Virus record (IMG/VR): IMGVR_UViG_3300023184_000239
Coordinates: 1 to 42,239 of that record
DNA: 42,239 nucleotides
Origin: a virus
Strand: one strand, 5' to 3'
Positions within the stretch are counted from its first letter, which is position 1. Every line of letters starts with the position of its first letter. The position numbers and the translations under genes are program-made. This document shows positions 9,171 through 18,133 of the stretch, in pieces. The notes below the pieces were generated by a model. That model worked only from the letters and a program-made list of their open reading frames with translations, was not told where the DNA came from and made no database searches.

Positions 9171-9509
9171 ATGATACCTGCAATTAAATATTCGGATATA
9201 TATTTGTATTCGACTTTGAATGACGAGTCGACTGAATTTAAATTATATTTGGATTCGAATAAAATAAAATACACATATCTCTTTTATGATTTAGAACATA
9301 AAAATGATAGTTTAGAAGCACTTAGCACTTGGTTTCAAGATCCAGAAATTGAAGGAACAACTATTAAATTCACAAAATTACCAATTTTAATATTTGAAAA
9401 AATATTTTGGGAATCACCAGATAAATCAGAAGTTTATCAAAAAAGATGGTTTGCAAAAACTATGCAAGACATTCCTTTAGACTTTTCAACTATTAGCGTA
9501 AAGATATAA
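9171..9509 (+). CDS. Small glutaredoxin/thioredoxin-fold candidate without the CxxC motif
   Basis: 112 residues. The N-terminus DIYLYSTLNDESTEFKLYLD, then KIKYTYLFYDLE, and then TKLPILIFEKIFW matches the beta-alpha-beta and cis-proline (KLP) layout of glutaredoxin-like proteins. Where a redox enzyme has C-x-x-C the protein reads YSTL, and it has no cysteine anywhere. If the fold is right it is therefore not a redox enzyme and may be a structural or adaptor domain. Similar cysteine-free proteins occur in marine T4-like phages (from memory). It sits between two fibre genes and ends 1 nt before the glycine-rich adhesin, so it may be involved in tail-fibre assembly. Fold assignment is inference. 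Confidence 0.5.
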   Translation: MIPAIKYSDIYLYSTLNDESTEFKLYLDSNKIKYTYLFYDLEHKNDSLEALSTWFQDPEIEGTTIKFTKLPILIFEKIFWESPDKSEVYQKRWFAKTMQDIPLDFSTISVKI

Positions 9510-9510
9510 T

Positions 9511-10515
9511 ATGTTATCAACAGCACTATCATCAGGGTCAATTCAACCCGCTGGATCTCAAACATTTAATTCTTCAGGCACTTATAGAATTCCATATGGA
9601 ATTCGAATTATAACAGTTGCGGGCGCTGGTTCTGATGGCACTCCAGGTACAGCAGGAACTGGCGGCGCAGCCGGAAATGCAGGTACAGCAGGAAATGCTG
9701 GATCGCCAGGAAATTCTGGTCTTCCTGGCGGTGGCGGTGGCGGTGGTGGAGGAGAAACAGTGGCGACTCCGGGTTCTGCTGGCGGCGCAGGAACACCAGG
9801 AACTAGTGGTGGCACTGTTGGAACTGGTAATCCAGGTGCTGGCGGAGCTGGTGGTGTAAACGGTGTTACCGCCGGTGGTGCTGGAGTTGTTGGAAATATA
9901 GGAAATACAGGAACAGCAGGAAATGCTGGAGCGCCAGGAACAGGAGGATCTGCTGGTAATCCAGGCGCACCTGGAAGTGCCGGTGTAAATTCTAACTTTA
10001 GCGGTCCTACAGCATGGACTGGTGAAACACCATCAATTACCTATATTGCTGGTAATGCTGGAGTTTTAGGAAATCCAGGAAATCCAGGAACCGCAGGAGC
10101 CGCAGGTCCCGGCGGACCAGGTGGTCCCGGCGGAGCAGGTGGTCCCGGCGGAGGTGGTGGTGCAGCTGGACAAAACAGCGGACCAATAACTGGTAGTCCT
10201 AACGGCACCGGCGGTGGTGCAGGTGGTCCCGGCGGAGCAGGTTCTCCAGCGCAGGCCGGATCAAAAGGTGTTCCCGCTTTGCGTGCAGGACAGCCTGGTG
10301 GTCCAGGTGGAGGAGGTTCAGCAGGCAGCGCGGGTAATGCAGGCACCGGCGGTACCCCAGGAAATGCTGGAGCAGCGGGTAATCCAGGAACAGGAGGCAC
10401 CGCAGGAGGATCAGGAACTTCAGGAACAACAACTGTAGCGGTTAAATCTTTGGCTGATTATACAGTTACAGTCGCACCAGGAAAATCAGTGACAGTTTCA
10501 TTTTCTGCTCAATAA
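9511..10515 (+). CDS. Glycine-rich adhesin-like tail fibre tip protein
   Basis: 334 residues. The N-terminal approximately 35 residues (QTFNSSGTYRIPYGIRIITV) form the beta motif that often introduces glycine-rich phage proteins. Residues about 35-310 are Gly/Ala/Pro/Asn-rich, with runs such as GGGGGGGGG and many GxPG, GNAG and GGPGGPG units. This recalls the glycine-rich receptor-binding domain of T-even gp38 adhesins, which pack as polyglycine-II helices. The C-terminus (VKSLADYTVTVAPGKSVTVS) is a closing beta segment. The gene is much richer in G+C than its neighbours because of GGN/GCN codons, and it carries direct DNA repeats that could recombine. Likely role: host recognition at the fibre tip. 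It directly precedes an island with a prolyl-hydroxylase-like oxygenase. Confidence 0.65.
   Translation: MLSTALSSGSIQPAGSQTFNSSGTYRIPYGIRIITVAGAGSDGTPGTAGTGGAAGNAGTAGNAGSPGNSGLPGGGGGGGGGETVATPGSAGGAGTPGTSGGTVGTGNPGAGGAGGVNGVTAGGAGVVGNIGNTGTAGNAGAPGTGGSAGNPGAPGSAGVNSNFSGPTAWTGETPSITYIAGNAGVLGNPGNPGTAGAAGPGGPGGPGGAGGPGGGGGAAGQNSGPITGSPNGTGGGAGGPGGAGSPAQAGSKGVPALRAGQPGGPGGGGSAGSAGNAGTGGTPGNAGAAGNPGTGGTAGGSGTSGTTTVAVKSLADYTVTVAPGKSVTVSFSAQ
10120..10242 (+). repeat. Direct repeats in the glycine-rich adhesin gene
   Basis: An identical 21-nt unit (starting GGTGGTCCCGGCGG, ending AGCAGGT) occurs at 10120-10140 and 10222-10242, with related partial copies nearby. The repeats are in frame, so recombination between them would change the length of the glycine-rich region by 34 codons. 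Confidence 0.8.
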
Positions 10516-10533
10516 TTATGAGGAATTTATATT

Positions 10534-11235
10534 ATGTTTTGGAAAAAATTGGATGACAGCATTGAATTTCTTTGTGAACCTAGATTAGAGGGAGTAATAC
10601 CTAAACCCTTTCCAGCAAAGCAATTTATTCCCGATTGGTATAAACGATTAAAATCTTATCACAAAGATGAAGATAAGATTACACCATTACCAACGCTTAA
10701 ACGATGTCCACCGTTTTTAGATGCAATGTCGGCAGGATGGATAATCCCTCTAGTTGCTGATGTTCATTTAAATGTTATAGATGACGGAACTGGAGTGTCT
10801 TGGGAATCTAATTTCATATATAATGTAATAGAAAACCATAAACTATCTCAAATAGAAACTCATCCTAAAGTTCCAAAAATTCCATTAAAGATATTAAACT
10901 ACTGGATGATTAAAACTCCACCTGGATGGTCTAGTTTGTTTATAACTCCAATAAATAGAATTGATGATAACTTAGAACTTATGGCTGGAATAGTTGAAAC
11001 TGATAACTATTATGAGTATGTAAATTTTCCAGGATTCGTTAAGATAGAAGGATATTTAAAATTAGATTCTGGATATCCATTGATGCAAGTTATTCCATTC
11101 AAACGAGAATATAATAAAGTAGCGAAAATAAAAACATTTTCTGCGGAAGATTCAAAAAAACATCAAATAAATAGAGATAGACTCTCAAGCAATCCCAGTC
11201 ATTATCGAGATAATGTGTGGGTAAAAAAAATATGA
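10534..11235 (+). CDS. Conserved phage protein of unknown function (DUF6065-like)
   Basis: 233 residues. Recognisable features are the N-terminal acidic/proline region (PKPFPAKQFIPDWYKRL), a conserved-looking block TLKRCPPFLDAMSAGWIIPL, a central WxxxTPPGWSSLFITPINR pattern and a C-terminal MQVIPFKRE. This layout matches, from memory, the DUF6065 proteins seen in phages and marine bacteria near 2OG-Fe(II) oxygenase genes. No catalytic motif is evident, and there is no signal peptide or membrane segment. It overlaps the oxygenase gene by 4 nt (ATGA) and so is probably translationally coupled to it. It may act with that enzyme on the same substrate, which is inference. Confidence 0.55.
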   Translation: MFWKKLDDSIEFLCEPRLEGVIPKPFPAKQFIPDWYKRLKSYHKDEDKITPLPTLKRCPPFLDAMSAGWIIPLVADVHLNVIDDGTGVSWESNFIYNVIENHKLSQIETHPKVPKIPLKILNYWMIKTPPGWSSLFITPINRIDDNLELMAGIVETDNYYEYVNFPGFVKIEGYLKLDSGYPLMQVIPFKREYNKVAKIKTFSAEDSKKHQINRDRLSSNPSHYRDNVWVKKI

Positions 11236-11771
11236 TAGCAGAACCTTTATGGTGGTCTTGGAAACAAATAATCCCTACAAATATATGTGAAGCGATTATT
11301 GAAGAAGGATATAAATTAAAATTAAAACCTGCAATGGTTGGATTAGGTGAAGAAGTTCTTAATGAAAGTATAAGAAAAACTACTGTTGGATTTTTTTCAT
11401 GGGATTCGTGGATTGGTGCTATCTGCAATCATTATGCACATCGAGCGAATACTAGTGCGTGGAACTTTCAAATATCAGGGCAACAGGATCCTCAATTCGC
11501 TATGTATGGTAATAATGAATTTTATGATTTCCATGAAGATTCTTCGAAGTTTGAAAAGAACATGAGAAAATTAAGTTTAGTTATTTCTATATCAAATCCG
11601 GACACATATGAAGGTGGAGATTTTGAATTTTTTGATGGAACAAGACCAGATATAAAAGGACAGGGATCTATATTAGTATTTCCATCATTTATTAAGCACA
11701 GAGTCACGCCAGTAACAAAAGGAACAAGATATTCATTAGTTAATTGGTTTTATGGAGAACAATTCAAATGA
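11232..11771 (+). CDS. 2OG-Fe(II) oxygenase, prolyl 4-hydroxylase-like
   Basis: 179 residues from ATG 11232, chosen over the upstream in-frame GTG 11217 because it makes the 4-nt ATGA overlap used repeatedly in this operon. The double-stranded beta-helix motifs are clear. The iron-binding H101-x-D103 lies in YDFHEDSS, the distal H156 in FIKHRVTP, and R166 in GTRYSLVNWF binds 2-oxoglutarate. GGDFEFFDG and GSILVFPS are the usual strands between them. The family hydroxylates peptidyl proline or related substrates using 2-oxoglutarate and O2. It lies just after a Gly/Pro-rich adhesin gene and in the same phage as a collagen-like fibre, so virion proline residues are a plausible substrate (inference). 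Confidence 0.85.
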   Translation: MIAEPLWWSWKQIIPTNICEAIIEEGYKLKLKPAMVGLGEEVLNESIRKTTVGFFSWDSWIGAICNHYAHRANTSAWNFQISGQQDPQFAMYGNNEFYDFHEDSSKFEKNMRKLSLVISISNPDTYEGGDFEFFDGTRPDIKGQGSILVFPSFIKHRVTPVTKGTRYSLVNWFYGEQFK

Positions 11772-12259
11772 TTAATTTATTGTATTTAGATAATAATGAT
11801 AAAATAATAGAAGAAATAGAAGAAATAGATATTGAGAAGGATTACGATTTAAATAAATTATATTTTGTCGTCGATAATTTTAAAGATAAAATAGGATATC
11901 TTAAAGAAAAAACACAGATAATTTCAATGGATATATCGGATATTTATCGAGAATATAATTTGAATCATTTAGAACATAGCGCAAATACTATCTACACAAT
12001 AAGCGAATCAAAGTTTTTGCTAATGCAATCTGGCTTGGTTGAACATATAAATTTAAAATGTAAAAATAAAATAGAAAACTTATTTTATGCATTAAGAAAT
12101 GATAAGACATTGGAAGAGTTTTTAGAAAAAAGAACACTTGTGATTGAGAAAAAAGAAAATACATTAAAAATTCTTAATGAATGCAGAACTGTTTTAGATA
12201 TATTAAATAATATACAATCATTAAAAGATTATGATATGGATTTAGAAACTATCAAATGA
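11768..12259 (+). CDS. Acidic helical protein of unknown function
   Basis: 163 residues from ATG 11768, which overlaps the oxygenase stop by 4 nt; the in-frame TTG 11744 upstream is less likely. The protein is rich in Glu, Lys, Asn and Ile. It begins with a short beta-like segment (INLLYLDNNDKIIEEIEEID), and residues 85-163 are probably helical or coiled coil (KCKNKIENLFYALRNDKTLE). No known motif is seen. Its stop overlaps the stop of the convergent PP-loop gene by 8 nt, and no terminator lies between them. It ends the plus-strand arm of the island. Confidence 0.55.
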   Translation: MINLLYLDNNDKIIEEIEEIDIEKDYDLNKLYFVVDNFKDKIGYLKEKTQIISMDISDIYREYNLNHLEHSANTIYTISESKFLLMQSGLVEHINLKCKNKIENLFYALRNDKTLEEFLEKRTLVIEKKENTLKILNECRTVLDILNNIQSLKDYDMDLETIK

Positions 12260-13391
12260 TATACTCATTTGTAGATATAAACTTTTCTGAAAACTTATTA
12301 TTATTATACTCTGTAAGTTTAGTTTGAAAATTGTTATATGAACTCAAAAATATATCTTTTTGTATCATATTTCCGTCCCATATCCAATCATCCAATCTAG
12401 ATTTTGCTGAAGATGGAGATTTTCCTGTAGAAAATGTATTTACATCCCAATATGGATACATAAGTTTTTGATAGCCCTTATCAGATAGATATAAATTTAA
12501 TAACTTATTATATCCACGAGAAGAAGGTTTTTGTTGGTAATATGATAGAATTGAATGTAAATTTGTATTTCTTATTTTGAAAAAGTTTTTAATTATATTA
12601 CATTGTTTTATCATTAATTCTGGTAAATCCGGACTAATACAAAAAAACTCATCGTACCATCCATTATTGTAGTTTCTTTGAACAATTGGAGAAACAACAT
12701 TATCATACGCATCATTGAATGTTAAATAATTATTTCCATTTCTATTATTAAAAACTAGTTTTTCCATACCCCAAAGAAAACAAACTTTTTTTCCAGAAAG
12801 AATTAAATTTTTCCACTTATCTACATTATGCCTCAATAAAGATTTTGCAATATTATTTGGTGAAATATTAAAATTCATATCATATAGTATATGTTCATGC
12901 CGATCATTAGTAGATAAATAATCCATGATAAATTTAGAAAAATCTATCACTGTATAATCGAATTTATATTTTTCTGAAAGAGTTATAATGTTTGGAATTG
13001 CTACAGTATATTGTTCTATATTTGCATAGCTATCTTTAACTTTAGACCCTTCGAGAGATACAAGTGTTGCAACTTCATCTAATTTACATTCAGAATTGAT
13101 CCACTGCATTAGCATATTATGACTATCAGATCCACCGCTATAGAAAAGAACAACGTAATCATAAGAGTTTCTAATTTGTCTGCATCTTAATTTATATAAT
13201 TCATTTAAAGATACATCTATCTCTTTAGAAAAATCTACTTTTAAAAATACTTCGTCATTATAATTCCAATGAATATTTTTTTTATTTTTTGCAGCACATT
13301 CTATTGCTTCTATTCTACTATATGTTTTATATTCACCAACTTGATAAAAACCAAATTTATCTGGAGAATATATTTGAATATTATTGTTCAT
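12252..13391 (-). CDS. PP-loop ATP-pyrophosphatase-like protein (divergent member)
   Basis: 379 residues. FYSGGSDS at residues 83-90 is the SGGxDS signature of PP-loop (N-type ATP-pyrophosphatase) enzymes such as asparagine synthetase, GMP synthetase, QueC, TtcA and WbpG-like amidotransferases. These enzymes adenylate a substrate before amide or sulfur transfer. The N-terminal 80 residues contain IYSPDKFGFYQVGEYKTYSR, a small domain preceding the loop. The C-terminal 200 residues are Asn/Tyr/Lys-rich with no recognised motif. There is no glutaminase domain and no CxxC. It is the last gene of a three-gene minus-strand operon and overlaps the preceding gene by 4 nt. The substrate is unknown. 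Only the PP-loop assignment is well supported. Confidence 0.7.
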   Translation of the reverse strand: MNNNIQIYSPDKFGFYQVGEYKTYSRIEAIECAAKNKKNIHWNYNDEVFLKVDFSKEIDVSLNELYKLRCRQIRNSYDYVVLFYSGGSDSHNMLMQWINSECKLDEVATLVSLEGSKVKDSYANIEQYTVAIPNIITLSEKYKFDYTVIDFSKFIMDYLSTNDRHEHILYDMNFNISPNNIAKSLLRHNVDKWKNLILSGKKVCFLWGMEKLVFNNRNGNNYLTFNDAYDNVVSPIVQRNYNNGWYDEFFCISPDLPELMIKQCNIIKNFFKIRNTNLHSILSYYQQKPSSRGYNKLLNLYLSDKGYQKLMYPYWDVNTFSTGKSPSSAKSRLDDWIWDGNMIQKDIFLSSYNNFQTKLTEYNNNKFSEKFISTNEYII

Positions 13392-14203
13392 ATTAGATAG
13401 GGTTTGAATATATTTAGTAGCTCATTTTTTTTCCATTGTATTCCAGTTTTAAATTTTTTTGATTCTGTCATAGCGTGGTTTATTTTTTGAATATATTCTG
13501 GATATTTATAGTGCATTTTAGTTCTCAGTTCTAATCCATATAATATCGACTTATATTCTTTCCAGCTCATATTTTCACCATCTAAAGTGTTACCACTAAT
13601 CATAGAATAAGTTAATTCAGGAGTGTATGTAAAAAATCCAATTTCATCTCCAAAGTATTCTGAATCATACGCATCATATTCATTAATGCTATATTCACTA
13701 TATTTTATTAATGCAAAACCGTCGCCTATGATATGATCTCCACATATCATAGTTCCCTTATTCTCTTTGACGTAGTTTGCAGCATACGCTCGCGTTGCAG
13801 ATTCAAAACCTATACCATTTATTTTTTTAAATATAAAATTCACACATATATCAATAATTTTATCATTCGAGCATTCAATCACAACTGGCTTTAAAGATAA
13901 TTTTTTACATATCTTAAATGCATATTTCGATTCTTCTTCATTTCCTTCGCACAAAATAATCAGAGGAATTATTGGAATTTTTAATTTTTCAAAACAGACT
14001 AATACATATTCAGAATCAATTCCACCGCTGAGTCCAACATAGAGGTTTTGATATTTTTTTGATATTTTAGTTGCTGCTTCTGCAGCTGCAGTGTGGAACT
14101 CTAATGGTTTAAATGGATATAGATTGAATTTTACATCGTAATCAGACATTAATCCAGATTTAGTAAGATTGTCATTAATCCAATTATTTTCGCTGATGAT
14201 CAT
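13388..14203 (-). CDS. PP-loop ATP-pyrophosphatase-like protein, tandem paralogue B
   Basis: 271 residues. GLSGGIDSE (57-65) is the PP-loop, followed by IPIIPLIILCEGNEEESKYA, typical of the second strand that specifies the substrate in this superfamily. It is close to an asparagine-synthase C-terminal domain in motif style but lacks the glutaminase half. A later conserved block is GIGFESATRAYAANYVKENK followed by MICGDHIIGDG. It is clearly paralogous to the adjacent gene 14203-15024, with long identical stretches such as KYQNLYVGLSGGIDSEYVL. It abuts its upstream paralogue by one shared base (TAATG) and overlaps the downstream gene by 4 nt, so the three are probably coexpressed. The reaction is unknown; amidation or another ATP-dependent transfer is the family expectation. 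Confidence 0.7.
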   Translation of the reverse strand: MIISENNWINDNLTKSGLMSDYDVKFNLYPFKPLEFHTAAAEAATKISKKYQNLYVGLSGGIDSEYVLVCFEKLKIPIIPLIILCEGNEEESKYAFKICKKLSLKPVVIECSNDKIIDICVNFIFKKINGIGFESATRAYAANYVKENKGTMICGDHIIGDGFALIKYSEYSINEYDAYDSEYFGDEIGFFTYTPELTYSMISGNTLDGENMSWKEYKSILYGLELRTKMHYKYPEYIQKINHAMTESKKFKTGIQWKKNELLNIFKPYLI

Positions 14204-14281
14204 TATGAATATATTAGATAGGGTTTGAATATATTTAGTAGCTCATTTTTTTTCCATCGTATTCCAGTTTTAAATTTTTTT
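13390..14281 (-). repeat. Near-identical 71-nt blocks in the duplicated PP-loop genes
   Basis: Positions 13390-13460 and 14211-14281 are the same except for one base (TTCCATTG versus TTCCATCG). They encode the shared C-terminus KFKTGI-WKKNELLNIFKPY. The copies lie 821 nt apart. Other long identical patches occur in the two genes, for example around GCATACGCTCGCGTTGC, so the tandem duplication is recent or maintained by gene conversion. Confidence 0.9.
13503..13510 (-). promoter_or_regulatory. Candidate internal minus-strand late promoter
   Basis: The plus strand reads TATTTATA, so the minus strand reads TATAAATA. It lies inside paralogue B, about 110 nt before the start of the last PP-loop gene at 13391. 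The matching site in paralogue A does not have the octamer. It encodes YKYP, so chance is possible. Confidence 0.3.
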
Positions 14282-15024
14282 AAGTTATGAATAGATGCAA
14301 TTACTTTTCGAATTCTTTCTGGATAACTATAATAAATTTTATCCCTTACTTCTAATGCGAATAATTTTGATTTATATTCTTGCCAGAACATATTTTCACC
14401 ATCTAAAGTATTTCCACTAATCATCGAATAAACCAATTCAGGAGTATATGTAAAAAAGCCAATTTCATCTCCAAAGTGTGCCGAATCATATCCATCCCAT
14501 TCGTTCATAGCATATTCACTATCTTTTAGTAATATATCTCCATCACCAATCATGTGTTCTCCGCAAATTAAAGTTCCCTCATTCTCTTTGACGTAGTTTG
14601 CAGCATACGCTCGCGTTGCGGATTGGAATCCTATACCATTTATTTTTTTGAATATAAAATTTAGACATATATCAATAATTTCATAATTTGAACAAATTAT
14701 AACTTTAGGAGTAATATTTAATTTTTCACATATCTTAAATGCGTATTTTGATTCTTCTTCATTACCTTCACATAATACGATTAAAGGAATTATTGGAATT
14801 TTTAATTTATAAAAACACATCAATACATATTCAGAATCAATTCCACCGCTGAGTCCGACATAAAGGTTTTGATATTTTTTCGAGATTTTTATTGCCGCTT
14901 GTTCTGCAGCTGCATGAAACTCTAATGGTTTGAATGGATATAGATTGAATTTTACATCGTAATCTGATATAAGCCCTGTGGGCGTAAAATTATCATTGAT
15001 CCAATTATTTTCACTAATGATCAT
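14203..15024 (-). CDS. PP-loop ATP-pyrophosphatase-like protein, tandem paralogue A
   Basis: 273 residues from ATG 15024; a GTG at 15033 is in frame. The ATG is preferred because the protein then begins MIISENNWINDN exactly like its tandem copy. The PP-loop LSGGIDSE (residues 58-65) and the blocks LIVLCEGNEEESKYA, SATRAYAANYVKENEG and LICGEHMIGDGD are shared with the copy. Differences concentrate between residues 165 and 190 and near residues 215-250, which could affect substrate specificity. It is the first gene of the minus-strand operon. A minus-strand late promoter octamer (15055-15062) lies 30 nt upstream. The function is unknown beyond ATP-pyrophosphatase chemistry. Confidence 0.7.
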   Translation of the reverse strand: MIISENNWINDNFTPTGLISDYDVKFNLYPFKPLEFHAAAEQAAIKISKKYQNLYVGLSGGIDSEYVLMCFYKLKIPIIPLIVLCEGNEEESKYAFKICEKLNITPKVIICSNYEIIDICLNFIFKKINGIGFQSATRAYAANYVKENEGTLICGEHMIGDGDILLKDSEYAMNEWDGYDSAHFGDEIGFFTYTPELVYSMISGNTLDGENMFWQEYKSKLFALEVRDKIYYSYPERIRKVIASIHNLKKFKTGIRWKKNELLNIFKPYLIYS

Positions 15025-15044
15025 AATTTTCACTTTAAATTCAC

Positions 15045-15052
15045 TATAAATA
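15045..15052 (+). promoter_or_regulatory. Late promoter octamer for the plus-strand gene at 15083
   Basis: An exact TATAAATA lies 30 nt before ATG 15083. It forms one half of a palindrome, TATAAATAGTTATTTATA, at 15045-15062. Confidence 0.75.
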
Positions 15053-15054
15053 GT

Positions 15055-15062
15055 TATTTATA
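15055..15062 (-). promoter_or_regulatory. Late promoter octamer for the minus-strand PP-loop operon
   Basis: The minus strand reads TATAAATA, 30 nt before ATG 15024. It lies only 2 bp from the plus-strand octamer, so the predicted start site of each promoter lies on or beside the other's octamer. Confidence 0.75.
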
Positions 15063-15082
15063 TACAAACACAGGATAATATT

Positions 15083-15460
15083 ATGCCTATCAAGAAAACT
15101 ATAATTCGTGAGAGAACAACTCCAGAATCAAGACTTCCTATTTTAGAAACTAGTGATCGTGAATATATAAAAGAAAAATATCAAAATACTGGAGCAATTT
15201 TATCCATAACTATTACATATAAAAACGCACTAGACGAAGTTGTATTATCTCGAAATCTTGCAACTAAAGAAATTATTGAATATGTATTCAAGGATTATGA
15301 GCAAAAAACCGCTTATAACAAAGATATCGAGATACGAAGAGCCACCATTGCCACTGGATTTCCTAGAGGTAATTTTCTACCAAATGAACTTCGCAATTAC
15401 GGTCCAATCTTACATGCAAATAGCGGAATTTTATTTTCACAAACTGAAGAAGAAATATAA
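15083..15460 (+). CDS. Conserved hypothetical phage protein
   Basis: 125 residues. No known domain is recognised. The N-terminus is basic and acidic (KKTIIRERTTPESRLP). A likely beta-hairpin (AILSITITYKNALDEVVLSR) is followed by a helix (TKEIIEYVFKDYEQKTAY) and a C-terminal tail with GPILHANSGILFSQTEEE. There is no signal peptide or membrane segment. AGGATAATATT precedes the ATG, and a late promoter lies 30 nt upstream. It is the first gene of a short plus-strand unit with the second oxygenase and the radical SAM gene. It may be virion-associated, since it is expressed from a late promoter, but the role is unknown. Confidence 0.55.
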   Translation: MPIKKTIIRERTTPESRLPILETSDREYIKEKYQNTGAILSITITYKNALDEVVLSRNLATKEIIEYVFKDYEQKTAYNKDIEIRRATIATGFPRGNFLPNELRNYGPILHANSGILFSQTEEEI

Positions 15461-15471
15461 AATACACATAT

Positions 15472-16173
15472 ATGATTAAACATTCGATATTTCCGACATT
15501 ATATGGGGAATGGAAATTTCTAGATCACGAAAAATTCAAACAACATTTTAAAGAAACTATTTTTGATTATATTAGAAATAACGGAACAACTAAAAGTGTT
15601 GTCGGAGTAGGTGAGAGAACTAAACATATCGGATTGCATACTATAGATTCATATTCTCCAATATTTCGTTTCGCTTCTGAATGCGTGAGAGAGTATATAC
15701 GAACGATGAATATAGACGATAAATTATATGATCTTTCTCTTGTTAAATCATGGCTGAGTGTTACAGGAACGCCAACAAATATTCATAGCCATGCAGATGC
15801 CCATGTTGTTTTTACTTACTATATCAATATACCCAAAACTTTAGAAAAAAATCTAAGGTTCTATAGAAATCATAATAATATTAATGATCTATATTACTGT
15901 ATGTCTGAATTTAACTGTAAAGAAGAATGGAATGAGTTTAATTGTAAAACTTGGGAGCAGCCTGCTACTGAGGGAGATTTATTTGTTTTTCCGGGAAAGT
16001 TGACTCATGATATCGTTGATAGTTACAGGAAAGAAACTATTGTCGAAGCGTTTGACGAAAACGAATTATTTCAACAAAGAATATGTCTAGCAGGAGACTT
16101 TAATTTAATTTACAGAGAAGCTTCTTCCAATGCTACAGGCACACAGCCAACGAAAAATTGGAGAATGTTTTGA
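15472..16173 (+). CDS. 2OG-Fe(II) oxygenase family protein (second copy type)
   Basis: 233 residues. NIHSHADAHVVFTYYINIP supplies the iron-binding H107-x-D109. GDLFVFPGKLTHDI supplies the distal H179, and R203 in QQRICLAGDFNLIYR fits the 2-oxoglutarate-binding arginine. This matches the putative 2OG-Fe(II) oxygenase type common in marine T4-like phages rather than the P4H type at 11232. The protein ends in NWRMF. A second partial copy of this 3' end occurs after the radical SAM gene (17338-17355), which suggests a rearrangement. It begins 11 nt after the preceding gene and overlaps the radical SAM gene by 4 nt. The substrate is unknown. Confidence 0.8.
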   Translation: MIKHSIFPTLYGEWKFLDHEKFKQHFKETIFDYIRNNGTTKSVVGVGERTKHIGLHTIDSYSPIFRFASECVREYIRTMNIDDKLYDLSLVKSWLSVTGTPTNIHSHADAHVVFTYYINIPKTLEKNLRFYRNHNNINDLYYCMSEFNCKEEWNEFNCKTWEQPATEGDLFVFPGKLTHDIVDSYRKETIVEAFDENELFQQRICLAGDFNLIYREASSNATGTQPTKNWRMF

Positions 16174-17312
16174 TTTCATCATCCTTTTGCCCAGCACCTT
16201 GGCTTTCACTCTTTTATCAATCCAACCATGCATCCCTTTGCTGTGCCAGTCGAGATAAAATTTTATCTAGTCCGAATGATTATATAAAATCTAATTACCT
16301 TCAAGGAATTAAACAACAGTTTCTAGATGGTATTCGTCCATCTACTTGTAATGGTTGTTGGAAAAGAGAAGCCGAAGGCATGCACAGTATTAGAAAATAT
16401 TACACAGAAAAATATGCAAAGTTGTGTAAAAATTTTAATCTAACGTCAAATGACCATTTGGGTACCAAATGGATGGAATTGCGTATCAGTAATCAGTGTA
16501 ATTTTAGTTGCAGAATGTGCGACACTGATTCTAGTTCAATTTTACAAAAAGAAGTTGAAAAAAACGAAAAACTGAAAAAATATTTTACAATTAGTTCTGA
16601 TGCTGACTACAAAATTTCTTCCAGAAACTTCGATCAAATACTTGAACAATTAAAGAACACTGATAGACTAATTTTAACTGGTGGTGAACCAATGTTGATT
16701 AAAAAATATTATGATGTGCTTGACTATCTAATATCAATCGGCAAGCAAGACATTCAGTTGTTAATCTTCACTAACTGTAGTGTATACAACCCGATCTTCA
16801 TTAGTAGATTGAAACAGTTTAAAAATTTATATTTAAATTTAAGTATTGATGCAGTTGGAAAAACAGCAGAATACGTGCGATATGGAACAGATTGGCCAGT
16901 GGTAGAAAAAAATATTTTATTGTTTTGTGAAGAATTCGAAAATGTATCAATTCACTCTACAATAACGTCCTATGGAATATTAGACTATACAGCAACAGCA
17001 ATGTTTTTTCAGTCATTATCAGCTATGTTTCCATTTTTACAGTTTAAAGCTCATGTAGCAACAAGACCTATGCCTTTAAGATTTGAAAATTTACCGCCTG
17101 AGATGAAAATACAAGCCAAATTTCAAATTAATAATGCGCTTCAAATCCTCCAAGGATCTAATTTATCTAAAATTATCATCGAACTAGAAAGTATATTAAA
17201 AAGACTAGATATCATTGGCGAACCTGAAAAGTTTTTAGAATTCACTGAAACGCTTGATAAAGTGAGGGGGCAATCGTTCATAAACTTGCAGTCTAAAATA
17301 AACAATCTGTGA
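16170..17312 (+). CDS. Radical SAM protein with N-terminal twitch-like cysteine domain
   Basis: 380 residues from TTG 16170, chosen because GGAG sits 6 nt upstream and the start overlaps the previous stop by 4 nt. TTG 16158 is an in-frame alternative without a ribosome site. C110-x3-C114-x2-C117 (CNFSCRMC) binds the radical SAM iron-sulfur cluster, and LTGGEPML (near 169-176) is the SAM-binding GGE motif. Extra cysteines at the N-terminus (FCPAPW, SLCC, and CNGCWKREAEG) fit the twitch domain for an auxiliary cluster, as in the N_Twi_rSAM family of phages and marine bacteria. The chemistry is SAM-dependent radical modification of a peptide or small molecule. The target is unknown. 18-bp direct repeats flank it. 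Confidence 0.85.
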   Translation: MISSSFCPAPWLSLFYQSNHASLCCASRDKILSSPNDYIKSNYLQGIKQQFLDGIRPSTCNGCWKREAEGMHSIRKYYTEKYAKLCKNFNLTSNDHLGTKWMELRISNQCNFSCRMCDTDSSSILQKEVEKNEKLKKYFTISSDADYKISSRNFDQILEQLKNTDRLILTGGEPMLIKKYYDVLDYLISIGKQDIQLLIFTNCSVYNPIFISRLKQFKNLYLNLSIDAVGKTAEYVRYGTDWPVVEKNILLFCEEFENVSIHSTITSYGILDYTATAMFFQSLSAMFPFLQFKAHVATRPMPLRFENLPPEMKIQAKFQINNALQILQGSNLSKIIIELESILKRLDIIGEPEKFLEFTETLDKVRGQSFINLQSKINNL

Positions 17313-17354
17313 GCATCATCAAAGACCAACGTAGAGATTGGAGAATGTTTTGAT
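17313..17354 (+). pseudogene. Fossil 3' end of an oxygenase-like gene
   Basis: After the radical SAM stop, one frame reads IIKDQRRDWRMF then TGA (17353). This repeats the NWRMF-stop end of the 15472-16173 oxygenase, and the last 18 nt are identical to it. It has no start and only about a dozen codons. It looks like the original gene end left behind when the radical SAM gene was inserted. Confidence 0.6.
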
Positions 17355-17362
17355 TATAAATA
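17355..17362 (+). promoter_or_regulatory. Late promoter octamer before gp13
   Basis: An exact TATAAATA lies 27 nt before ATG 17390; a related CATAAATA follows at 17366. It marks the start of the neck/terminase transcription unit. Confidence 0.75.
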
Positions 17363-17389: not shown

Positions 17390-18133
17390 ATGGCACTTCC
17401 TGTATCAAGACAAGAATTTAAGGAGTATTGCCTACGTAGACTAGGATATCCTGTTGTTGACATCAACGTAGATGAGCAGCAAATTCAGGATAGAATCGAC
17501 GATGCATTAGCTTATTATCGCGATTATCACTATGATGGAACTGAACATCTATACTTATCGTATTTGATGACTCCAACAGATATTACAAATAGATATGTAA
17601 CGCTTCCAGAATCAATTCAATCAGTGACATCTATATTCGCTACTGGCGGAAACTCTAATATTAACGGATTGTTTAATATCAGATATCAGATGCATCTAAA
17701 CGATTTATTTGACTTTTCTAATTCTGCATCTGGTGCATATGTTATGGCGATGCGGCACGTTGAAACATTGGAAGAAATTTTTAATGGTAAAAAAGCTATA
17801 CGATATAATCGCCATATGGATAAATTATTTTTAGATTTAGATTGGACAACTGATGTATTTGCGGGTCAATACATAATTGTAGATTGTTATGGTACAGTAG
17901 ATCCAGAGAATTACACAGACGTTTATGCTGATGTATTTTTATTAAAATACGCTACAGCTTTAATTAAACGCCAATGGGGAATGAATCTATCAAAATTTGA
18001 AGGCATGCAACTTCCAGGCGGAATAACGTTCAATGGGCGAGTCATTCTTCAAGATGCGAATGAAGAAGTTCAGAGATTAGAAGATACAATGCTAAGTTCA
18101 CAGTCATTACCTGTGTTTGATATGGTCGGATAG
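17390..18133 (+). CDS. gp13: Neck protein gp13 (head completion)
   Basis: 247 residues. The N-terminus SRQEFKEYCLRRLGYPVVDI, then QIQDRIDDALAYYRDYHYDG, and the middle RYNRHMDKLFLDLDW with a later DVFLLKYATALIKRQWGMNL are the conserved pattern of gp13 in T4-like phages. Gp13 with gp14 completes the head after DNA packaging and forms the neck to which the tail binds. It is shorter than T4 gp13 (about 309 residues), as is usual in marine relatives. It is followed after 2 nt by gp14, in the canonical order. Confidence 0.88.
   Translation: MALPVSRQEFKEYCLRRLGYPVVDINVDEQQIQDRIDDALAYYRDYHYDGTEHLYLSYLMTPTDITNRYVTLPESIQSVTSIFATGGNSNINGLFNIRYQMHLNDLFDFSNSASGAYVMAMRHVETLEEIFNGKKAIRYNRHMDKLFLDLDWTTDVFAGQYIIVDCYGTVDPENYTDVYADVFLLKYATALIKRQWGMNLSKFEGMQLPGGITFNGRVILQDANEEVQRLEDTMLSSQSLPVFDMVG

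Follow-up and report, generated by a model that had tools for sequence, protein, structure and literature searches.

Accessory genes in layers at the fibre-to-gp13 site of an uncultured T4-like phage: a probable case of separate acquisition

Marine T4-like phages, such as pelagimyophages and cyanomyophages, carry a hypervariable host recognition cluster at the site where fibre genes meet neck genes, and radical S-adenosylmethionine (SAM) cassettes occur inside it (PMC7029224). 2-Oxoglutarate (2OG) oxygenases are common in cyanophages (PMC3037559). Here, we analyse the corresponding site in an uncultured virus, IMG/VR record IMGVR_UViG_3300023184_000239, whose 42,239 bases (the whole stretch analysed, hereafter the window) include a T4-like structural module. 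Nine accessory genes, all of them intact, lie between a glycine-rich fibre gene (9511-10515) and gp13, which starts at 17390. By sequence comparison, the site is the hypervariable host recognition cluster of marine T4-like phages, which runs from the fibre genes to gp13/gp14, and its gene content varies among the window, its closest relative L003 (IMG/VR 3300043409_001419), and the loci L002, L008, and L251. A preliminary description of this DNA had held that core T4-like genomes lack such genes, which is true of T4 but not of marine T4-like phages, given the hypervariable site described in PMC7029224. The isolates nearest to the window by terminase are Methylophilales phage Melnitz and Synechococcus phage ACG-2014a (57%). 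Melnitz was ruled out as a carrier of the island, as its fibre genes pass directly into the neck genes.

This hypervariable site has likely gathered at least three late-type accessory layers that were acquired separately. Layer A comprises the Gly-X-Y fibre gene, a gene of the DUF6065 family, and a 2OG-Fe(II) oxygenase (OG1), of which the latter two recur with collagen-like fibres. Layer B comprises a large PP-loop protein (PPL), two small PP-loop proteins (PPSa and PPSb, collectively PPS), a protein of the u100 family and, probably, a second 2OG-Fe(II) oxygenase (OG2). Layer C is a single radical SAM gene (rSAM). The sequences themselves show the layering, the intact motifs of the active sites, the linkage counts, and the rSAM insertion, and from these catalysis and substrates are inferred. 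The genes were found on the strands and at the places given in the preliminary description, with the overlaps that it noted. Layers A and B could be two undescribed phage systems lying side by side, one hydroxylating Gly-X-Y fibres by means of DUF6065 and a 2OG hydroxylase, the other a PPL/PPS/u100 ligase that combines acid capture by TctC or DctP proteins with ATP activation, but we regard this fuller reading as doubtful.

The rSAM gene (16170..17312, plus strand; listed as an open reading frame from 16158) encodes a twitch-type radical SAM protein. It matches NF033640 (N_Twi_rSAM) over residues 7-382 with 268.3 bits (cut-off 170), and its translation contains the CxxxCxxC cluster motif as CNFSCRMC. 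In L003, OG2 is followed directly by gp13, and rSAM is absent. Alignment of the two sequences runs to 16175, breaks off, and resumes at 17337. The 19 bp at the end of OG2, ATTGGAGAATGTTTTGATT, have a single copy in L003 and two copies in the window, as plus-strand direct repeats at 16157..16175 and 17337..17355. The duplication and the alignment gap together indicate a single-gene insertion of 1,180 bp, the junction of which lies at TGATT bases shared with the rSAM start. Identity to L004, a 285-kb (jumbo-phage) contig, is 86.2% at the DNA level, over the gene only (16171-17298), and 81% at the protein level. Neither L002 nor L008 has rSAM near the PP-loop module. These alignments suggest that rSAM is most likely a recently inserted, independent passenger with a substrate of its own.

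Linkage to PPL was counted among 22 dereplicated PPL-bearing records, with near defined as within 1.5 kb unless stated; most of the records used in this study are fragments, and their open reading frames were called mechanically. Genes of the N_Twi type lie near PPL in 1 of 55 cases, against 3.2 expected, and rSAM was ruled out as a general member of the PP-loop module on this count. Radical SAM arrays (twitch-type and others, up to 14 matches per contig) were also observed far from PPL, in G028 (the L073 record; 49-72 kb) and G026 (the L069 record; 143-166 kb).

A rival reading, which follows the preliminary description, places the PP-loop enzymes, rSAM, and both oxygenases in one late pathway, whose successive steps would modify a virion protein or yield a single small molecule. 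Compact, overlapping genes and late promoters speak for it, as does L004, in which the nearest relative of rSAM, a member of the same clade, lies 1.7 kb from a PPL and near a PPL-PPS pair; PPL may be linked with this particular subclade. Further support comes from G004 (168 kb), a distant T4-like phage with a terminase 50% identical to that of the window, which carries locus L251. Its fibre-to-gp13 order is Gly-rich fibre, an unassigned gene, PPL, fatty acid hydroxylase, PPS, an unassigned gene, a 125-amino-acid (aa) protein (u100 likeness judged by eye), PPL, TctC, an unassigned gene, PPL, TctC, an OG1-type gene, an OG2 relative (38%), TctC, and gp13. PPL, PPS, u100-type genes, and OG2 thus recur jointly at the same site. 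The co-occurrence of PP-loop genes with rSAM, suggested earlier as a check, fails in general. No rSAM occurs at this site in G004, an arrangement that supports PPL, PPS, and OG2 as a unit and rSAM as separate. Against a single pathway stand the absence of rSAM from L003, L002, and L008, its clean insertion, the general lack of linkage between N_Twi rSAM genes and PPL, and the 77 of 80 DUF6065 loci that have no PP-loop genes. Most of the island is therefore distributed independently, and the one-pathway view is largely refuted for rSAM and DUF6065-OG1; for the island as a whole, we consider it quite improbable.

Layer A includes the fibre gene (9511..10515, plus strand), whose product is 34% Gly and contains 72 Gly-X-Y triplets in runs of at least four, with Pro at Y in 16 of the 72. 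The gene for the DUF6065 protein (10534..11235, plus strand; PF19541, 27.2 bits against a cut-off of 26.6; phrog_7084), a companion of Gly-X-Y fibres, is followed by OG1 (11217..11771, plus strand), an oxygenase of the PKHD-hydroxylase type (2OG-FeII_Oxy_3, PF13640, E 2.5e-14). At least 332 relatives of DUF6065 were found in IMG/VR, and neighbourhoods were counted in the best 80 loci among them. OG1 adjoins DUF6065 in 34 of these 80, and three contain PP-loop genes. T4-like relatives usually have the fibre gene followed by DUF6065, OG1, and gp13, and many such phages have no other island genes. Of 49 distinct loci, 32 encode a Gly-rich protein no more than three genes away from DUF6065, against a background of 10 of 484 more distant genes, and the closest relatives have Gly-X-Y runs of 11 to 114 triplets. 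Fifteen of 17 loci with long Gly-X-Y runs carry OG1, compared with 10 of 32 without such runs (Fisher 2e-4). When OG1 was used as the query, runs were found in 9 of 10 loci with both OG1 and DUF6065 and in 2 of 49 with OG1 only (4e-8); five contigs of this search overlap the DUF6065-based set. By these counts, DUF6065-OG1 is a recurrent fibre cassette that travels with collagen-like Gly-X-Y fibres.

Collagen prolyl hydroxylases act on proline in the Y position, and this makes the Gly-X-Y fibre a natural candidate substrate of OG1. Across 2,748 triplets, Pro occupies 15.4% of Y positions and 2.5% of X positions, and Asn 36% of X positions. OG1 is closest to PKHD-type hydroxylases (3dkq/PiuC, E 3e-6); it scores 54.5 bits on the 2OG-FeII_Oxy_3 superfamily (cut-off 27) and falls below the curated PKHD cut-off (50.5 bits against 143). 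It would probably hydroxylate side chains of the repeats, either Pro at Y or Asn at X, and DUF6065 would be its putative fibre-specific partner. We offer this proposal tentatively, with doubt and confidence almost in balance. The earlier idea that the island decorates virion proteins finds support in this arm only, through the co-occurrence with Gly-X-Y fibres.

Gly-rich fibres accompany DUF6065 also in loci that lack OG1 (L109, L138-L168), as would be expected if DUF6065 and OG1 were chaperone-like partners in fibre assembly, with no hydroxylation of the fibre and some other target for OG1. However, OG1 retains all of its catalytic residues, with the iron triad H106-x-D108 and H161 and the 2OG-binding R171 invariant in eight aligned sequences, and it co-occurs specifically with the long Gly-X-Y type. 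An assembly role of this kind is conceivable, though on balance we doubt it. DUF6065 gave chance matches only against the PDB, and our literature search found no paper containing the name; titles and abstracts yielded no description of a phage system that combines collagen with a prolyl hydroxylase. A gene for a 112-aa protein (9171..9509, plus strand), accessory to layer A, precedes the fibre gene; it has no family match, and its homologues immediately precede the Gly-X-Y fibre in L098, L101, L103, and L115. DUF6065 was also observed in haloarchaeal tailed viruses, at 38-40% identity (phage records H61-H75).

Layer B includes three minus-strand PP-loop genes, PPL (12252..13391; 379 aa, P-loop SGGSDS), PPSb (13388..14203; 271 aa, SGGIDS), and PPSa (14203..15033; 276 aa). 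Three such genes are indeed present, as first described, but PPSa and PPSb are tandem paralogues with 79% identity, so that the window has two PP-loop types and not three independent enzymes. In L002, the order of the PPS copies (33-1608) relative to PPL is swapped when compared with the window (13388-15033), and L003 retains one copy only; together, these hint at recombination between the tandem copies. Both PPL and PPS have the SGGxDS P-loop on a HUP fold that characterises the PP-loop superfamily. The 55 aligned PPL proteins share invariant R69, R74, S85-G-G-x-D89, D105, G208, K211, D227, and K324. Broken active sites, raised earlier as a possible argument against one pathway, can be rejected, with P-loops intact in all 55 PPL relatives and the catalytic residues of OG1 invariant.

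At least 116 PPL matches occur in IMG/VR. No corresponding family was found in Pfam, NCBIfam, or PHROGs, nor a description in the literature. Among 50,697 phage records, two PPL queries and one PPS query recovered no relatives of the PP-loop proteins in cultured phages, and two pattern scans of 84,980 prokaryote genomes found no bacterial source of PPL, although the pattern method may miss divergent copies. Matches of the PPL profile to PDB sequences were at chance level. The AF2 model of PPL (pLDDT 91.5) has full-length fold relatives among unnamed proteins of uncultured Caudovirales, and the nearest solved folds for the PP-loop proteins are carbapenam and beta-lactam synthetases, LarE, and NAD synthetase. 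By its conserved motifs and distribution, PPL is an undescribed, putatively ATP-using family, so far found only in uncultured phages. PPS lies below every curated cut-off of the asparagine synthetase, NAD synthetase, WbuX, and QueC models, to which PPL has no matches or sporadic weak ones. The N-terminal glutaminase (Ntn) domain of asparagine synthetase is absent from both by Pfam, and the N-terminal part of the PPS model is a short hairpin only.

The remaining genes of layer B are on the plus strand. The u100-family protein (15083..15460; 125 aa) was recognised by an iterated profile that joins 29 proteins from PPL-containing loci and has chance matches only in Pfam. OG2 (15472..16173; PF13759, E 4.6e-8), with a dN/dS of 0.05 against L003, probably belongs to the same layer.

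The genes around PPL in other phages suggest what layer B might do. TctC genes lie within 1.5 kb of PPL in 19 of 24 cases, against 2.0 expected (0 of 5,000 shuffles; independent Pfam model), and DctP genes lie within 3 kb in six of six, against 0.9 expected. PPS is near PPL in 12 of 33 cases (2.8 expected) and u100 in 7 of 13 (1.0 expected), both counts being biased by ascertainment because their models were built from PPL loci. By inspection, each of the 36 TctC proteins carries an N-terminal segment like a signal peptide, and in the 12 DctP proteins the domain itself forms the start; signal-less DctP stands beside PPL in L033, L034, L037, L046, L052, L057, L061-L063, L080, and L083. PPL and PPS would use ATP, bound at their intact PP-loop, to adenylate a small molecule on a carboxylate or similar oxygen, and would then pass the product on to an amine or to ammonia. 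Capture of the substrate would, in most relatives, fall to a solute-binding protein of the TctC or DctP type that the phage itself encodes. ATP activation of a small acid or sugar in this manner is a possibility that we put forward with reserve. Titles and abstracts yielded no description of phage TctC-type systems of this kind. A nitronate monooxygenase/FabK-like gene was observed beside PPL, with genes for fatty acid desaturase, Rieske, and DUF2061 proteins repeatedly nearby, among L024-L029, L051, L052, L058, L060, and L066. In a further PPL subgroup (L009-L016), the gene is flanked by porin-like genes on one side and, on the other, by an S-adenosylmethionine-decarboxylase-like gene, which was recognised by eye.

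Two other functions for these genes have to be weighed. The best PDB profile matches of PPS are NAD synthetases (E 3e-7), and two Bordetella TctC-type proteins bind quinolinate (PMC11452294). Both would suit NAD or nucleotide salvage, with PPS as a shortened NAD-synthetase-like enzyme and TctC as the importer of a pyridine carboxylate. Yet the resemblance is confined to the HUP core, no member exceeds the NadE cut-offs, and PPL, the main partner of TctC, has no NadE sequence similarity, and salvage seems to us very improbable. The island might otherwise make or alter a glycan or lipid of the host envelope, for example through amidation of a sugar by PPL, and so block superinfection. Some relatives have PPL among cytidylyltransferase, epimerase, glycosyltransferase-like, and porin genes, others near fatty-acid desaturase or hydroxylase genes, and PMC7029224 describes lipopolysaccharide glycosyltransferases at the pelagimyophage site. 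However, family searches found no glycosyltransferase or sugar gene in the window's island, and the WbuX amidotransferase model matches 1 of 55 PPL proteins, weakly. Remodelling of the host surface is thus an unlikely explanation, though one with some claim to attention.

Several observations, besides the arrangement in L004, weigh against the layered reading and the functions proposed within it. No solved structure matches the PPL model at E below 0.001 (best query TM about 0.36), and the reaction is therefore not fixed by the fold. The window has no TctC-like gene beside PPL, so that the small-acid step is proposed for it by extension from relatives. In L121-L137, OG1 occurs with two tandem copies of DUF6065 and no Gly-X-Y protein nearby. 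Lastly, the loci in the linkage counts share ancestry, which makes the p-values too small.

Expression of the island appears to be late. The late-promoter motif TATAAATA occurs 13 times in the window, against 7.0 expected, a number reached in 1 of 100 shuffles. PPSa and the 125-aa gene are 50 bp apart, and the interval contains a divergent pair (15045-15052, plus strand; 15055-15062, minus strand), both conserved in L003, and another match lies before gp13 (17355-17362). Judged by these motifs, the PP-loop arm begins at divergent late promoters, and the island genes are of late type. A 171-aa open reading frame (11744..12259, plus strand), conserved in L003 and L002 (dN/dS 0.34), lies between OG1 and PPL. 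Homologues and overlaps indicate likely starts at ATG 11232 for OG1, ATG 11768 for this reading frame (c. 163 aa), and TTG 16170 for rSAM, each of which overlaps the preceding stop by 4 nt. Every gene that was compared with its L003 counterpart shows purifying selection (dN/dS 0.05-0.34).

If the proposal for layer A is correct, phages hydroxylate collagen-like fibres as animals, some bacteria, and giant viruses do, and DUF6065 gains a biological role. If that for layer B is correct, solute-binding proteins encoded by phages go together with a gene family that is common in uncultured aquatic phages, which would point to a shared metabolic strategy that is open to testing. The presence of the same rSAM gene in a T4-like phage and in a 285-kb contig is a warning against reading island neighbourhoods as pathways.

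As the preliminary description supposed, no paper was found on this combination of genes, and the closest known systems each resemble a part of it. The host recognition cluster of pelagi- and cyanomyophages is alike in its place, variable content, radical SAM cassettes, and accessory metabolic genes; the accessible part of PMC7029224 mentions neither a PP-loop/TctC module nor an association of DUF6065, 2OG oxygenase, and Gly-X-Y fibre. The PP-loop ATP pyrophosphatases (NAD, carbapenam, and beta-lactam synthetases, LarE, QueC, and WbpG/WbuX) share the HUP core and SGGxDS loop, whereas PPL falls outside the curated families, and for its other c. 230 residues no solved structure comes close. The window's rSAM scores above the N_Twi_rSAM cut-off and has remote relatives in KVP40-like Vibrio phages, but these are 20-26% identical and stand in other contexts, while the window copy is a recent insertion. 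OG1 has the core and HxD..H..R residues of PKHD-type 2OG hydroxylases (PiuC/YbiX), from which it differs in scoring far under the curated cut-offs and in its linkage, with DUF6065, to Gly-X-Y fibres. Finally, these fibres share Gly-X-Y runs with collagen-like phage fibres (PF01391, the Pfam Collagen model), and the relative in L095 passes that model with 77.9 bits. The window protein, in contrast, lies under its threshold without a match, and the fibres are low in Pro and rich in Asn at the X position; the Gly-X-Y fibre could form a polyglycine-II bundle instead of a triple helix.

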